From a virus, in IMG/VR virus record IMGVR_UViG_3300047356_000653, positions 1-29,165 of that record: DNA of 29,165 nt; one strand, given 5' to 3'. The position numbers and the translations under genes were made by a program. The notes below the pieces were generated by a model. That model had not been told where the DNA came from. It searched no databases and saw nothing but the letters and a program-made list of their open reading frames with translations. Positions 8,450-14,312 of this stretch are shown piece by piece. Positions within the stretch are counted from its first letter, which is position 1. Each line of letters begins with the position of its first letter.

Positions 8450-8878
8450 ATGGCATATTCAGATAAAGTAGTTAAGCGTTTTGAAGACGTTCTTAACAAC
8501 CCTCATAGTCACGGGGTAGGTCGCTTTGATCCAAATGATCCTAACGTGGCAACAGGCATGACTGGCGCACCGGCGTGTGGTGATGTAATGAAACTTGACT
8601 TAAAAGTAAATCCTGATACTGATGTTATTGAGGATGTTAAATTTAAGACATATGGTTGCGGTAGTGCTATAGCAAGTTCAACAATGTTTGTTGAAATGCT
8701 TAAAGGACTTACTATGACTGAAGCATTAGAAATTAAAGATAAAGATATTGCTGATGCTTTAGAATTACCTCCTATCAAATTGCATTGTTCTGTACTAGCA
8801 GAGGATTCTATTAAGAAAGCCTTAAAAGATTGGGACGAAAAGAAAGCAAAACGTAAACATAACGGAGGACCTGAATAA
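8450..8878 (+). CDS. iscU: iron-sulphur cluster scaffold (IscU-like)
   Basis: A 142-residue IscU-family scaffold, on which Fe-S clusters are built before transfer. All three cluster cysteines are present: Cys43 in GAPACGD with Asp45, Cys70 in TYGCGSAIASS, and Cys113 in the LPPIKLHC motif. The LPPIK segment is the HscA chaperone recognition site. The N-terminus (MAYSDKVV) also matches. The region around residues 12-25 is altered relative to the bacterial 'HYENPRNVG' stretch (FEDVLNNPHSHGVG), and a basic tail (KKAKRKHNGG) is added. It has its own promoter. With the phage ferredoxin and radical SAM enzyme it suggests an investment in Fe-S chemistry. Confidence 0.94.
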   Translation: MAYSDKVVKRFEDVLNNPHSHGVGRFDPNDPNVATGMTGAPACGDVMKLDLKVNPDTDVIEDVKFKTYGCGSAIASSTMFVEMLKGLTMTEALEIKDKDIADALELPPIKLHCSVLAEDSIKKALKDWDEKKAKRKHNGGPE

Positions 8879-9069
8879 TGCCTATTAAATTTAAACCATC
8901 ACAAACCATTAGAGACAAAGCATCTGGTAAAAATAAAACACAACATTTTTACATGAAGTCTACACCAACCAAAGAACTTGTTGATTACTTTGATAGTTTT
9001 AATGCTAAACCTAAACTAAAAGTAAAAGTAAAACGAGAACTTGTACGCAGAGGTTACTACAAAAGCTGA
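8878..9069 (+). CDS. small basic conserved phage protein, 63 aa
   Basis: A 63-residue, strongly basic protein (MPIKFKPSQTIRDK..., then YMKSTPTKELVDYF and a C-terminal KLKVKVKRELVRRG). It shares one base with the iscU stop and has GGAGG before its ATG. I recall relatives in marine T4-like phages, unnamed. The charge pattern would suit nucleic-acid or ribosome binding, but that is a guess. Its stop codon TGA overlaps the late-promoter motif that serves the next gene. Confidence 0.75.
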   Translation: MPIKFKPSQTIRDKASGKNKTQHFYMKSTPTKELVDYFDSFNAKPKLKVKVKRELVRRGYYKS

Positions 9070-9076
9070 TAAATAC
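9068..9076 (+). promoter_or_regulatory. late promoter motif GATAAATAC
   Basis: GATAAATA plus C, 24 bases before the gene at 9101, which has GAGGG as its ribosome binding site. The first bases overlap the TGA stop of the upstream gene. Confidence 0.7.
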
Positions 9077-9100
9077 TTGCATAATAATTGAGGGATTAAT

Positions 9101-9382
9101 ATGTGGGATATGATTGAAAGAATGGCGAATGATCGCCTATGGATTTACACAGCATTAGTTGGGTCGCTATTTGGATTAGCGTTTTCAACATATTTTCAAA
9201 GCACACGTTTAGGCTTATGGCTATATGCTAAGTTTGACTTGACAATTGACTTCTTAGTTAAACGTTGGGGATGGACTTGGTTACAACAGCCAGAAGATGC
9301 ATGGCGTAAAAAATATCCACATGTAACCAAAAAAATTGACGAATTAGAAAAACGTCTAAAACATCTTGAGGGGAAAAGATAA
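9101..9382 (+). CDS. membrane protein with C-terminal coiled coil, 93 aa
   Basis: A 93-residue protein with one clear hydrophobic helix (about 14-33, YTALVGSLFGLAF...), a second amphipathic aromatic stretch (38-62, rich in Trp), and a short charged C-terminal coiled coil (KKIDELEKRLKHLEGK). It shares one base with the next membrane protein and lies behind a late-promoter motif. Size, time of expression and neighbourhood would suit a lysis accessory protein or antiholin, but no family was recognised. Confidence 0.7.
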   Translation: MWDMIERMANDRLWIYTALVGSLFGLAFSTYFQSTRLGLWLYAKFDLTIDFLVKRWGWTWLQQPEDAWRKKYPHVTKKIDELEKRLKHLEGKR

Positions 9383-9726
9383 TGGCAGAAGAAGACAAAA
9401 AATCCGTAACTATGGATTCAGCTACAGCTAAAAGTATGGATACAAATGGCGATGGGCATATATCAGCAGAAGAAGCCGCAATGGATCTTGAATTCAAACG
9501 TAAACGGTTAGAAGATGCTGATGCTATGCGTGATGCACAACGCAATATGGCATGGTTTGCATTGTTTGGTATGCTACTGTATCCGTTTGCAGTAGTTGTT
9601 GCAAGCCTAATTGGATTAGATACTGCTGGTAAAATTTTAGGAGATATGGCTCCTACATACTTTGTATCAGTAGCGGCTATTGTTGCGGCATTCTATGCTA
9701 AAGAAGCAGTTGGCGCAAAGAAGTAA
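9382..9726 (+). CDS. EF-hand membrane protein, candidate holin, 114 aa
   Basis: A 114-residue protein joining a canonical 12-residue calcium-binding EF-hand loop (Asp20 to Glu31, with Asp20, Asn22, Asp24, Ser28 and Glu31 at ligand positions) to a charged helix and two hydrophobic helices (about 52-76 and 85-107). Only one EF hand is present. Two closely spaced helices and a soluble N-terminus resemble class II holins. No holin is otherwise visible near the endolysin, so this is the best candidate. GAGGGG precedes the ATG. The holin call is inference; it may instead be a virion or signalling membrane protein. Confidence 0.6.
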   Translation: MAEEDKKSVTMDSATAKSMDTNGDGHISAEEAAMDLEFKRKRLEDADAMRDAQRNMAWFALFGMLLYPFAVVVASLIGLDTAGKILGDMAPTYFVSVAAIVAAFYAKEAVGAKK

Positions 9727-9741
9727 TCACGTCTGATAAAA

Positions 9742-9782
9742 TGTAATAGTCCATGCGATAAGTATTAATATGGACTATTACA
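9742..9782 (+). promoter_or_regulatory. 13-bp hairpin that buries the dnaJ start codon
   Basis: TGTAATAGTCCAT (9742-9754) and ATGGACTATTACA (9770-9782) are exact reverse complements with a 15-base loop. The right arm begins with the dnaJ ATG and covers codons 1-4. In RNA the start codon would be paired shut. No Shine-Dalgarno is visible in the loop. A late-promoter-like motif lies in the loop. Confidence 0.75.
9757..9764 (+). promoter_or_regulatory. possible late promoter in the hairpin loop (GATAAGTA)
   Basis: GATAAGTA differs by one base from the GATAAATA motif seen four times elsewhere. By the T4 late-promoter geometry the start point would fall at or next to the A of the dnaJ ATG, giving a transcript without the left hairpin arm. 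A second weak match, GATAAAAT, lies at 9735-9742. Confidence 0.45.
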
Positions 9783-10573
9783 CAATCCTTGGTGTTCAAA
9801 AAAACGCTTCTCCAGATCAGTTAAAAAAGGCATACAAGAAAGCAAGTATGCAACACCATCCTGATCGAGGAGGCGACGAAGAACAGTTTAAAAAAGTTAA
9901 TGAAGCATATGCAACATTAAAGGATCCACAAAAAAGAGCGGCATACGACAATCCACAACCAAGAATGGATAGTAATATGTTTAATCAAAACTTTGGAAAC
10001 TTTAATGATATATTCTCATCTATGTTTGGTGCTGATGTTCGTAGACAGCATGTACGCAATCCTGATGTCAATATTAAAGTTCCAATAAGTCTTAGAGAAG
10101 TAATTACAGGTAAGAAAATACTAGCAACTTACAGGCTACGCAACGGACAAGAGCAAACTGTTGATTTAGATATACCTATTGGAGCTAAACATAAAGATAC
10201 TATAAGATTTAGTGGTTTAGGAGAAAGTAGTTTTCCTGGACCAAGAGGCGATTTGTATGCAGTTGTAGACATTCAAAAAGACTCTGTATTTGAACGCTCA
10301 GGTGATAATGTATTACTATCTTTAAAAGTAAATTGTTTAGAACTAATAACAGGATGTAATAAACATATAACAACACTTGAGGGTAGAACAATATCATTAA
10401 CTATTCCTCAAAATACAAAACACGGATCAACATTTAGTATGAACGGATACGGATTACCAAATATGCATACAAACAGGAGAGGCTCTATGCTTGTACGAAT
10501 TGAAGCAGAAATACCTCAAACATTAACTGATAAACAAATAAAGAAAATAAGCGAGATAGTAAATGGATCTTAA
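9770..10573 (+). CDS. dnaJ: DnaJ-like co-chaperone (type II, no zinc finger)
   Basis: A 267-residue J-domain protein. The J domain (1-65) has the HPD motif at 30-32, which stimulates the ATPase of host DnaK. A short Gly/Phe/Asn/Met linker (about 66-95) replaces the G/F region. There is no CxxCxGxG zinc finger, so it is of the type II (CbpA/DnaJB) kind. Two beta-rich substrate-binding domains follow (about 100-180 and 181-255), with the FSGLGESSFPGPRGDLYAVV segment typical of domain I. No Shine-Dalgarno precedes the ATG, which lies in a hairpin. The 3' end overlaps the deformylase gene by 11 bases. Confidence 0.93.
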   Translation: MDYYTILGVQKNASPDQLKKAYKKASMQHHPDRGGDEEQFKKVNEAYATLKDPQKRAAYDNPQPRMDSNMFNQNFGNFNDIFSSMFGADVRRQHVRNPDVNIKVPISLREVITGKKILATYRLRNGQEQTVDLDIPIGAKHKDTIRFSGLGESSFPGPRGDLYAVVDIQKDSVFERSGDNVLLSLKVNCLELITGCNKHITTLEGRTISLTIPQNTKHGSTFSMNGYGLPNMHTNRRGSMLVRIEAEIPQTLTDKQIKKISEIVNGS

Positions 10574-11069
10574 ATTAGTAAAATCACCTAATCCATGGTT
10601 AGCTAAAAAAGTTAGCCCGTTTAGTTTTGGATTTTTAAATCCAGTAGAAGTTGAAAAACAAATGATTGAATTGATGATACAAGAAGGCGGAATCGGATTG
10701 GCTGCTAACCAAGTAGCATTAGATGCACAAGTTTTTGTAATGAAACCTTACTTATTGGAAGATAAGAGTCCTTTTGCAGTTATAAATCCTGAAGTGCTAC
10801 AAGTGTCAGAAGAACAAGAAATAATGCCCGAAGGATGTTTAAGCCATCCTAATTTAATAATAAATGTTAAACGTCCTAAAACAATTTTAGTAAAATTTCT
10901 TGACATTGAGGCAAATGAGTGTATAATAGAGTTAACAGACATAGATGCTAGGTGCTTTTTACATGAGTATGATCACTTACACGGTATTGAGTTTGTAGAT
11001 CGAGTAAGCAAACTAAAATTAGATAGAGCAAAGAAAAAATTACAAAAGAGGAAAAAACTTAATGGTTGA
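10563..11069 (+). CDS. def: peptide deformylase
   Basis: A 168-residue peptide deformylase, removing the formyl group from new proteins. All three family motifs are present: GIGLAANQ (43-50, Gln50), EGCLS (90-94, metal ligand Cys92) and HEYDH (134-138, ligands His134 and His138, catalytic Glu135). The C-terminus is short and lysine-rich. Phage deformylases are known from cyanophages, where host photosystem turnover was proposed as the reason; that cannot hold for a heterotroph. It overlaps dnaJ and clpA on either side, so the three are co-translated. Confidence 0.95.
   Translation: MDLKLVKSPNPWLAKKVSPFSFGFLNPVEVEKQMIELMIQEGGIGLAANQVALDAQVFVMKPYLLEDKSPFAVINPEVLQVSEEQEIMPEGCLSHPNLIINVKRPKTILVKFLDIEANECIIELTDIDARCFLHEYDHLHGIEFVDRVSKLKLDRAKKKLQKRKKLNG
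10900..10927 (+). promoter_or_regulatory. sigma70-type promoter inside def, before clpA
   Basis: TTGACA (10900-10905), a 16-base spacer and TATAAT (10922-10927); both boxes are perfect. The start point would be near 10934, about 130 bases before clpA, so clpA could be made early without dnaJ and def. Confidence 0.55.
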
Positions 11070-13302
11070 ACCAAGTAAAGAGTTACAGGTAGTATTTGAT
11101 AAAAGCATTAGAGATGCTAAAAAACTGCAACACGAGTATGTGACAGTTGAGCATCTATTATTTGCAATGTTATGCTCTGATAATTTCTATAACCTATTAA
11201 AAGGATCGGGTGTAGATGTTGATTATCTAAAGTCTAATCTTGAGCATTATTTAAAGAATAATCTACAAGAAATTACAATTGAAACTGTAAAATATAAACC
11301 TAAGAAAACAGCATCAGTTGAGCGTGTTTTAAATAGAGCATTTACGCAAACATTATTTGCTGGTAGAAGTCATATTGAACTTAGTGATGTACTAATGAGT
11401 ATGCTAAGTGAAAAGAAAAGCCATGCTGTTTATTATTGTGATAAAGCAGGTATTGTAAAAGAAGAGTTCGCTGAATACATTAATAGTGAATTTGAAGAAC
11501 AGTTTGAAGATGAAGAAATGTCTGGAGCAAGTGCAAAAGCTCTAAGACAATTTACAACTAACCTAAACGATCAAGCAAAGCGTAATAAAATTGACCCAAT
11601 TATCGGACGCAGTGACGAACTTGAAAGTATTGCACTAGCATTAGGGCGTCGACAAAAAAACAATGTTATTTTAGTTGGAGACCCGGGTGTTGGTAAGACT
11701 GCTATTGCTGAAGGCATGGCTTACAATATTATTAATGATGCTGTACCAGAATTTCTAAAAGAATATGAAGTATACATGTTAGACATTGGTGCAATGCTTG
11801 CAGGTTCAAAATATCGCGGCGACTTTGAAGAACGATTTAAACTTGTATTGTCTGGATTAAAAAGTAAAGGCAAAACAATTATGTTTATTGACGAAGCACA
11901 TATGATGAATGGTGCAGGTGCAGGCGGTCAAGGTAATTCAAATGATCTTGCTAATATGTTAAAGCCAGCTCTTACTAAAGGAAATATCAAAGTAGTTGCA
12001 TCAACTACTTGGGACGAATATCGTAAGTACTTTGAAAAAGATCGTGCATTGATGCGTAGATTCCAACGTGTAACCGTTGACGAACCTACAGCAGAAGTTA
12101 CTAAAGATATTTTACGAGGTATCAAACGCTACTATGAAGACTTTCATAAAACTGTAATTACAGAAGAAGCAATTGACCAAGCTGTGAAACTAAGTGTAAA
12201 ATATCAAGCTGATAAAAAATTACCTGATAAAGCAATTGACTTAATTGATTTAGCATGTGCTAGATTTAAACTTAACATGGAAACTGATAAAAAAGTTACA
12301 GCTAGTAAAATTGAGTTTGAATTAGCAAAACTTGTTAACCTTCCAGCAGAACAAGTTTCTGAAAAAGAGAGTGAAAATTTAGCTAACCTTGAGAAAAATC
12401 TCAAGAAGCAAGTATACGGACAAGACGAAGCAATTGACAGTATTGTTGATAAAATTCTTGTTGCTCAAGCTGGTCTAAAACCAGCAGATAAACCTGTAGG
12501 TGCATTTGTGTTTATGGGGCCAACGGGTACTGGTAAAACTGAAACTGCCAAACAACTTGCAACAGCACTTGGTGTTGAACTTGTACGCTTTGATATGAGC
12601 GAATACCAGGAAAAACATAGTGTTGCTAAACTTATAGGCTCGCCTCCAGGGTATGTAGGACATGAAGAGAGTCAAGGTCAGCTGATTGTAAAATTACAAG
12701 AAAATCCTAACTGTGTTTTATTGCTTGATGAAATTGAAAAAGCACATCCGGATGTATCTCAAATCTTATTGCAAGTTATGGACAACGGTAAAGTAACAGG
12801 CTCTAATGGTAAAGAAGCAGATGCACGTAACAGCATCTTAATTCTTACAACTAATCTTGGCGCACAAGCCGCTGAGAAGAACACTATTGGATTTGACGAA
12901 GACTTTGATCAATCTTCATATGAAGATACAGAATTGAAAAAGTTTTTTGCTCCAGAGTTCCGCAACAGGCTAGACGGTACAATTACATTTGCTAAACTTG
13001 GCAAAGAAGTAATGATAAAAATTGTTGGCAAGTTCCTTGTTGAACTTAAAGATATGGTTGTTGATAAAGATGTTAGTATTGAAATATCAGACGAAGCTAT
13101 TGATGCACTAGTTGAAAAAGGTTTTGACAGTAAAAACGGAGCTCGTCCATTACAGCGTGTTATTGACAAAGAAATTAAACGTCCGTTATCACGAAAGTTA
13201 TTGTTCGGTGATCTAAAGAACGGTGGAAAACTACATATCGATTTCGTTGATGATAGTTTTACGCTTAGTGTGTTGGAGATTGAAACAGTTGATCACGAAT
13301 GA
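11062..13302 (+). CDS. clpA: ClpA-type AAA+ protein unfoldase
   Basis: A 746-residue Clp/Hsp100 ATPase, close in length to E. coli ClpA (758). It has an N-domain (about 1-150), D1 with Walker A GDPGVGKT (206-213) and Walker B MFIDEAH, and D2 with Walker A GPTGTGKT (486-493) and Walker B LLLDEIEKAHPD. There is no ClpB/ClpC middle coiled coil. The D2 loop contains IGF (609-611, after EKNT) where ClpA and ClpX carry the IGL/IGF tripeptide that docks onto ClpP. No clpP is seen here, so it may act with host ClpP. It overlaps def by eight bases. Family call is certain; the partner is inferred. Confidence 0.94.
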   Translation: MVEPSKELQVVFDKSIRDAKKLQHEYVTVEHLLFAMLCSDNFYNLLKGSGVDVDYLKSNLEHYLKNNLQEITIETVKYKPKKTASVERVLNRAFTQTLFAGRSHIELSDVLMSMLSEKKSHAVYYCDKAGIVKEEFAEYINSEFEEQFEDEEMSGASAKALRQFTTNLNDQAKRNKIDPIIGRSDELESIALALGRRQKNNVILVGDPGVGKTAIAEGMAYNIINDAVPEFLKEYEVYMLDIGAMLAGSKYRGDFEERFKLVLSGLKSKGKTIMFIDEAHMMNGAGAGGQGNSNDLANMLKPALTKGNIKVVASTTWDEYRKYFEKDRALMRRFQRVTVDEPTAEVTKDILRGIKRYYEDFHKTVITEEAIDQAVKLSVKYQADKKLPDKAIDLIDLACARFKLNMETDKKVTASKIEFELAKLVNLPAEQVSEKESENLANLEKNLKKQVYGQDEAIDSIVDKILVAQAGLKPADKPVGAFVFMGPTGTGKTETAKQLATALGVELVRFDMSEYQEKHSVAKLIGSPPGYVGHEESQGQLIVKLQENPNCVLLLDEIEKAHPDVSQILLQVMDNGKVTGSNGKEADARNSILILTTNLGAQAAEKNTIGFDEDFDQSSYEDTELKKFFAPEFRNRLDGTITFAKLGKEVMIKIVGKFLVELKDMVVDKDVSIEISDEAIDALVEKGFDSKNGARPLQRVIDKEIKRPLSRKLLFGDLKNGGKLHIDFVDDSFTLSVLEIETVDHE

Positions 13303-13966
13303 ATCAAATAAATTATTCTACGGCAAATACTTATATAGACTTGAAATAAACAATCATCTAGCAAGATTTTTTAGAGAGAAAAATCTTCCTCAGGCTAAAT
13401 CTGTGCTAGATAGTTTACAGGGTCAAATTGATTCAGGTATGTTGGAAAAATTAACAGTCCGTCGTGGCCTGCGCCATATACAAGTACCTTATGATGAATT
13501 TATCGATGCTGTAAAACTTTATAGTTCTTTTATAACTGCTGATGATTATAAACTACGTGTATCCTATAGTTTTCTAAATATATATGCTAATAATTTAGAT
13601 TGGCTTAAAGACATTGCTAACCAAATTAATTCAAATAAAGTATACGGACTATGGAAACCTAATGAAAAATACATAACTTCTTTAAAACAAAAAAATGTAA
13701 TTTTAGTTAACGAAGGTAACGGGTATCAATATAAAGTTACATTTGGCAATGGGCGAGGAGAAGAATCATTTATAAAATGGGCTGATGCAAACCCTAATTT
13801 AATTAAAGTAGGTCCTCGTCTTAAAGAAGAACTAGAAGCTCAAGGATACGTTAACGGTATGTATTTTTATGCAAGAGATGAAAAAACATTGTCATTATGC
13901 AACCTAGTTACGTCAAATATTAGGCGCATTGACAAATTACTAGTCAAGTCCGATATTGATAAATAG
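13289..13966 (+). CDS. conserved hypothetical protein, 225 aa
   Basis: A 225-residue protein of mixed alpha/beta character. It starts at TTG 13289 inside the end of clpA: GGAG at 13274-13277 stands 11 bases upstream and there is no usable ATG in this frame nearby. Notable segments are NKLFYGKYLYRLEINNHLA near the N-terminus, YKLRVSYSFLNIYANNLDWL in the middle and YVNGMYFYARDEKTLSL near the C-terminus. No known catalytic motif or membrane helix. The stop TAG is embedded in a late-promoter motif for the next gene. I cannot name the function. Confidence 0.75.
   Translation: MITNESNKLFYGKYLYRLEINNHLARFFREKNLPQAKSVLDSLQGQIDSGMLEKLTVRRGLRHIQVPYDEFIDAVKLYSSFITADDYKLRVSYSFLNIYANNLDWLKDIANQINSNKVYGLWKPNEKYITSLKQKNVILVNEGNGYQYKVTFGNGRGEESFIKWADANPNLIKVGPRLKEELEAQGYVNGMYFYARDEKTLSLCNLVTSNIRRIDKLLVKSDIDK
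13958..13965 (+). promoter_or_regulatory. late promoter motif GATAAATA five bases before an ATG
   Basis: GATAAATA contains the TAG stop (13964-13966, sharing TA) of the upstream gene and ends five bases before the next ATG. With T4 late geometry the transcript would begin at the ATG. A weak sigma70-type pair (TTGACA 13929-13934, 17 bases, GATATT) lies just upstream. Confidence 0.65.
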
Positions 13967-13970
13967 TTAT

Positions 13971-14312
13971 ATGGCACAAAGTGAATTAATATTAGCAAAT
14001 CAAATGCATCCCGGTGATAGTACCGCACAAACTACATTCGGTGAAAAATTTAAAGGGGACGGGTACTACGGACGTAGTGACGGGCTCCACACCGTACAAT
14101 ACAGTGTAACAGGATTTACAGGCACAGTTGCCGTGCAAGCAACACTTGCAGTTAATCCAGTTGAAGCAGATTGGTTTACAGTCTACACCGAATCACATTT
14201 AACTACAACTAAAACGATTGTAGAAAACTTCACAGGAAATTATGTTTGGTTAAGAGCCGCAGTAAGTAGCTGGACTGATGGCTCAGTTGATAGTATATTA
14301 TTAAATCATTAG
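13971..14312 (+). CDS. probable virion beta-sheet protein, 113 aa
   Basis: A 113-residue protein rich in Thr, Val, Ser and Gly with alternating hydrophobic residues (SVTGFTGTVAVQATLAVNP, then TVYTE and NYVWLRAAV), as expected of a small beta-sandwich. It has a GDGYYGRSDGLHTVQYSV segment that I associate, from memory, with structural proteins of T4-like marine phages. No cysteine or signal peptide. The start is the ATG at 13971, five bases after a late-promoter motif and with no Shine-Dalgarno. A decoration or fibre-associated protein is plausible, not shown. Confidence 0.75.
   Translation: MAQSELILANQMHPGDSTAQTTFGEKFKGDGYYGRSDGLHTVQYSVTGFTGTVAVQATLAVNPVEADWFTVYTESHLTTTKTIVENFTGNYVWLRAAVSSWTDGSVDSILLNH

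Follow-up and report, generated by a model that had tools for sequence, protein, structure and literature searches.

The dnaJ-type chaperone gene of a T4-superfamily phage fragment begins inside a hairpin that carries a late promoter between its arms, and we propose that this arrangement is probably a late switch of the T4 type whose active product is a leaderless mRNA, set within a wider class of leaderless late genes. The window, i.e., the whole stretch of DNA that was analysed (29,165 bases), also encodes a T4-type DNA polymerase, a clamp loader, a thymidylate synthase, a peptide deformylase, and a Clp ATPase. Its DNA polymerase shares 76-90% identity with those of the contigs of its clade, 45% with that of Agrobacterium phage Atu_ph07, and 26-27% with those of HTVC008M and S-PM2 (26% for HTVC008M). 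A search with T4 gp55 revealed a gp55-like late sigma factor in four relatives (G003, G007, G019, and G020) and none within the 29-kb fragment itself.

According to the proposed mechanism, RNA entering dnaJ from upstream, either from the late promoter at 9068 or from an earlier one, would fold the first four codons of the gene into a 13-bp stem and could not be translated from dnaJ. The octamer GATAAGTA inside the hairpin would instead initiate transcription at the A of the dnaJ ATG. The resulting RNA would have no left arm and an open 5'-terminal AUG. Ribosomes would read it as a leaderless mRNA, and dnaJ would be translated only when its own promoter fires. The features involved are listed in Table 1.

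Table 1. Features of the dnaJ region and of a second leaderless-type locus in the window.
Feature	Position	Strand	Remarks
Upstream late octamer GATAAATA (P1), leadered	9068..9075	+	Shine-Dalgarno GAGGG before ATG 9101
Small gene (MWDMIERM...) driven by P1	9101..9382	+	
Hydrophobic protein gene	9382..9726	+	Weak EF-hand match; stop codon 43 nt before dnaJ ATG
Hairpin left arm TGTAATAGTCCAT, noncoding	9742..9754	+	Reverse complement of dnaJ codons 1-4; 63 relatives conserve AATAGTCC[AG]T
Late-promoter octamer GATAAGTA	9757..9764	+	Predicted -13 to -6; T4 numbering PMC2988020
Predicted transcription start, A of dnaJ ATG (leaderless)	9770..9770	+	Octamer + 5 nt; spacing invariant in relatives, modal in clade
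Hairpin right arm ATGGACTATTACA	9770..9782	+	dnaJ codons 1-4 plus one base
dnaJ-type chaperone gene, 267 aa	9770..10573	+	DnaJ and DnaJ_C Pfam domains; J-domain match from residue 2
Peptide deformylase gene, next in operon	10563..11069	+	
Clp-type ATP-dependent protease ATPase gene	11062..13302	+	
Second leaderless-type late promoter GATAAATA, 5 nt before ATG	13958..13965	+	Orthologous sites at 4-6 nt in related contigs
113-aa gene, predicted leaderless start	13971..14312	+	Conserved start ATG 13971; ORF list extends to TTG 13956

The hairpin over the dnaJ start codon

The two 13-nt arms are 100% complementary and enclose a loop of 15 nt, the right arm starting with the dnaJ ATG. An earlier note on this DNA, made from the letters alone, had described exactly this 13-bp perfect repeat, with its right arm running from the ATG through codons 1-4, and had also been right about the lack of a Shine-Dalgarno (SD) sequence before dnaJ: inspection of the sequence upstream of the ATG revealed no SD-like stretch. 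No other inverted repeat of at least 12 nt with arms up to 100 nt apart is found in 9000-11000. The predicted fold of 9700-9830 reaches -28.3 kcal/mol (z -3.05), and an equally low energy was obtained in 2 of 200 shuffles. Both the predicted folding and the covariation described below place the start codon within the stem in the long RNA.

The opening of the dnaJ start region is predicted to cost 15.7 kcal/mol in the read-through RNA of the window vs 1.5 in the leaderless one, the medians of the arm-bearing clade being 16.1 and 0.9 kcal/mol, respectively. These values are consistent with the silence of read-through RNA that the earlier note had proposed, but the promoter at 9068 is itself a late one, and the silencing would thus cover late read-through too. 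Since both P1 and the dnaJ promoter are late, the hairpin would separate the outputs of two late promoters, in addition to any early read-through, and for the same reason a role in early/late timing is not established.

The same energies bear on the suggestion that the hairpin might be an RNA thermometer controlling the chaperone gene. A dnaJ-type gene and an AU-rich stem over a start codon would be appropriate for such a device, but opening the start would still cost 22.5 kcal/mol at 10 °C and 15.7 at 37 °C, there was no match to any Rfam thermometer (neither ROSE nor fourU), the stem covers the AUG and not an SD sequence, and the predicted active RNA has no left arm. Temperature sensing, which had been put forward as a second option, is thus highly improbable.

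Conservation and covariation of the arms

Relatives were collected with pattern searches for dnaJ that preset the promoter, the spacing, and the residues MDYY, but not the left arm; together with loci collected earlier, they yielded 163 sites, 116 of them distinct. The left arm was in register at 63 dnaJ sites, and its 10-bp core was paired in 99.5% of the cells of the comparison (60 distinct relatives). Only the inner 10 of the 13 pairs are conserved, the outer ones varying freely. Although noncoding, the left arm is far more conserved than the flanking bases, across dnaJ proteins down to about 46% identity to that of the window.

Covariation is restricted to few pairs because the right arm has to encode MDYY. 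At pair 9, we have found three double changes from A-U to G-C, each with the Tyr codon passing from TAT to TAC (Fisher p 3e-5), and they represent three separate events on a dnaJ tree that was built without the hairpin codons. On this tree, sense pairing was kept in about 30 of the 33 left-arm events. Left-arm changes compatible with G-U pairing occur at pairs 2, 3, 4, 7, and 10, whereas at pairs 1, 5, 6, and 8, which would not stay paired after a left-arm transition, there are zero changes (1/210 at the position level). The inner pair -15/-1 is GU in 23, AU in 20, GC in 16, and AC in 1 of the 60 sequences, and most relatives extend the stem inward (-15 to -11 with -5 to -1) to 15 bp with a 5-nt loop, an extension mostly lost in the window. 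The covariation on which the earlier note had made its hairpin depend is therefore found in the core, but not without exceptions: L134 and L152, both arm-bearing, show an A.C without compensation at pair 9, and L067 and L072 have lost one or two outer pairs.

On the opposite strand, the G-U compatible changes would leave mismatches. This pattern points to an RNA of mRNA sense as the pairing molecule and supports selection on the pairing at the RNA level. A different reading takes the arms as a DNA palindrome, i.e., an operator or an extruded cruciform at the late promoter that would regulate transcription and not translation. The octamer does lie between the arms, and T4 late promoters need a replicating template (PMC2988020). 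However, nearly all the left-arm changes are G-U compatible on the mRNA-sense strand and thus A.C on the other one, the outer pairs are free to vary, and such arms are absent at most other leaderless promoters, which makes a role at the DNA level improbable.

The hairpin could also be a 3'-end stabiliser or processing site of the upstream mRNA, the hiding of dnaJ being a by-product. It begins 15 nt past the stop codon of the upstream gene, and its loop is AU-rich in the window. Against this, the stem of the arm-bearing relatives keeps its register to the dnaJ AUG and compensates for changes in dnaJ codons, and it lacks a T-run and received no terminator call, so that we regard this reading as slightly more doubtful than the palindrome. 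The constraint of the protein sequence on the right arm would fit even a functionless inverted duplication, the product of chance or a relic, but a noncoding left arm that is conserved beyond its flanks over such a protein distance, and with compensation, leaves this with almost no likelihood: the dnaJ hairpin is real.

About 50 further dnaJ sites keep the 5-nt spacing without the left arm, nearly all of their octamers ending in ATAAGTA. In this arm-less group, the median opening cost of the start region in read-through RNA is 6.7 kcal/mol vs 16.1 in the arm-bearing group. Thus, the leaderless output would not require the hairpin; of the two features, the predicted leaderless start is the more widespread, and the strong hairpin has been added in a single group. 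Many members of clade B, which has no upstream arm, present a smaller GTAATAGT-ATGG-ACTATTAC hairpin that is often mismatched beyond the four TAGT/ACTA pairs, and we do not claim selection on it.

Late-promoter spacing and the proposed leaderless class

The late-promoter-like motif noticed earlier in the loop proved to be a variant of the T4-type late octamer, with two departures from the T4 late consensus TATAAATA. Exactly 5 nt separate it from the dnaJ ATG, making 13 nt from the octamer start to the ATG. The T4 octamer is numbered from A(-13) (PMC2988020), and by this numbering the octamer would span -13 to -6 and the +1 would fall on the A of the ATG, yielding a leaderless late mRNA. The active transcript that had been predicted to begin in the loop does have a late promoter inside the hairpin, but the 5-nt distance moves its predicted start to the ATG itself. 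Judged by position, this promoter would release an RNA without the 5' arm, with an open 5' AUG and no SD, as expected of a leaderless mRNA.

When dnaJ relatives carrying the motif were fetched by protein similarity, the spacing was always 5 nt although the five bases themselves varied; these loci are free of the selection introduced by the pattern search, which preset that spacing. Across the 116 distinct sites, the dnaJ promoters are GATAAGTA, GGTAAATA, or another octamer ending in TAAGTA, and the consensus NATAAATA occurs in none of them. The dnaJ octamers of all relatives are single-G variants, with the G at -8 or -12, unlike the other leaderless-type genes, where ATAAATA predominates. This suggests that the dnaJ promoter is tuned and weaker, and the main effect of the switch may be to confine dnaJ expression to this single-G variant promoter of its own.

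The most serious competitor is a classical switch of the T4 e/soc type, in which the late transcript is leadered, its true start lies further upstream, and the translation signal resides in a short leader. T4 e, soc, and I-TevI have the same architecture (PMC3014915, PMC2988022), and the neighbouring P1 gene fits it, with an SD and, in many relatives, an arm split by the predicted +1. At dnaJ, however, only the 13 nt from the octamer start to the ATG would be available and no SD-bearing leader is seen, the 5-nt spacing is invariant though the spacer sequence varies, and the 4-6 nt class as a whole is nearly devoid of SD sequences. We therefore consider a leadered dnaJ transcript unlikely, albeit less so than the other alternatives.

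The spacing class was defined by a census of the window and 13 related contigs, in which each NATAARTA was paired with the closest ATG downstream that opens an ORF of 60 codons or more. The 271 unique motif-ATG pairs showed a bimodal distance: 61 at 4-6 nt (47 at 5, 10 at 4, and 4 at 6), 14 at 7-15 nt, and 171 at 16-32 nt. An SD core accompanied 2 of the 61, 1 of the 14, and 138 of the 171, respectively. Among 20 permuted motifs, none gave more than 7 sites at 5 nt, vs the 47 real ones. In addition, the purine fraction at leadered promoters is 0.47 at offset 4 but 0.70 at offset 5, and it remains high further on, as expected for an RNA start at offset 5.

The 4-6 nt class recurs at orthologous genes, with 13 sites at a 113-121 aa gene, 11 at dnaJ, and others, and several of these recurrent genes match virion structural families. 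The first is represented in the window by the 113-aa gene, whose TTG start in the ORF list overlaps the late promoter. A few other leaderless-type genes have high-scoring hairpins (e.g., L268 and L059) but most do not, so a hairpin as a general part of the class was rejected. One member, at L039:16000-18048 (minus strand), is a phage gene whose product combines CHASE2 with guanylate/adenylate cyclase domains and whose ATG has a late promoter 4 nt before it; an annotated cyclase is also present in HTVC008M.

Outside the clade, HTVC008M, a T4-like pelagiphage of a SAR11 host, has 9 of 28 motif-gene pairs at exactly 5 nt, where any permuted motif gave at most one, and the gene starts of its depositors coincide with all six of the 5-nt ATGs checked, including those of CsgF, the tape measure, a DNA end protector, and a baseplate gene. 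The comparison of this phage with ours covered the late-promoter spacing and the DNA polymerase. S-PM2 has 1 of 30 motif-gene pairs at 5 nt, no pair at 4-6 nt was found in the 400 kb searched of Atu_ph07, and none below 12 nt in the T4 census (ATG of a 60-aa ORF). It thus seems likely, if somewhat less firmly than the reading of dnaJ itself, that some T4-superfamily phages of aquatic bacteria, including HTVC008M, use two kinds of late promoters, SD-leadered ones and leaderless ones at a fixed 5 nt, the latter amounting to about a fifth to a quarter of the late start sites, and that at dnaJ the hairpin makes translation conditional on the gene's own promoter.

Phage-encoded bS21 is found in several clade contigs with the leaderless class (L335-L338; G011, G013, G016, and G017) and in HTVC008M. 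As a cause of the 5-nt class it was discarded, since Atu_ph07 and Phosso also have it and both are without the class.

Comparison with known systems and gene neighbourhood

A few phage mRNAs are known to be leaderless, such as that of lambda cI, which is translated from a 5'-terminal AUG. These are single cases, whereas here we would be dealing with a recurrent class set by the spacing of the late promoter. The switch architecture, in contrast, is already known from T4, where e, soc, 49, and I-TevI have a start-sequestering hairpin with a late promoter inside (PMC3014915, PMC2988022), and the analogy with e and soc drawn in the earlier note is thus well founded. In these genes, as well as in Aeh1 mobE and T4 segB, a stem likewise hides the start in the long RNA and an inner late promoter yields an RNA without the 5' arm. 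The RNA released in the e/soc type, however, has a leader with a ribosome binding site, whereas the predicted +1 of dnaJ lies on the AUG, and the gene under control here is a chaperone in a dnaJ-def-clp operon. The octamer and the gp55-like sigma of the relatives are similar to the T4 late system (gp55/gp33/gp45), although the first base of the octamer, T in T4 late promoters, is often G, A, or C in this clade.

The open-access papers searched contained no description of such a leaderless late class for T4-superfamily phages, a scope that leaves priority less than certain. A study of phage AR9 describes phage transcripts as 'often leaderless', yet the AR9 leaders measure 26-491 nt (PMC5312081). 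If true, a systematic class of leaderless late mRNAs would mean that a phage can exploit the ribosomes of its host in a new manner, and the cultured phage HTVC008M offers direct access to such a class. It may also help to explain why late-promoter prediction failed in a study of pelagimyophages (PMC7029224) and why automatic ORF lists can choose wrong upstream starts, as with the TTG at 13956. In the dnaJ case, 41 bases combine the choice of a promoter with the control of translation, and natural variation supplies the evidence of covariation.

Upstream of dnaJ, the region 9068-9115 comprises P1, the leadered late promoter of both genes that precede dnaJ, and a stem that spans the start of the small gene (MWEMI/MWDMI). 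The five bases after the octamer are CACAT in many relatives and pair with ATGTG, and the predicted +1 splits the arm, i.e., the leadered T4 e type; this stem is weaker in the window. A scan of cellular genomes with the dnaJ-start pattern for a clue to the host gave 107 matches, none of them a DnaJ with the pattern. A NifU_N-like protein is encoded at 8450-8878, and a perfect match to a sigma-70 promoter (TTGACA-16-TATAAT) lies at 10900-10927, inside the deformylase gene and upstream of clp.
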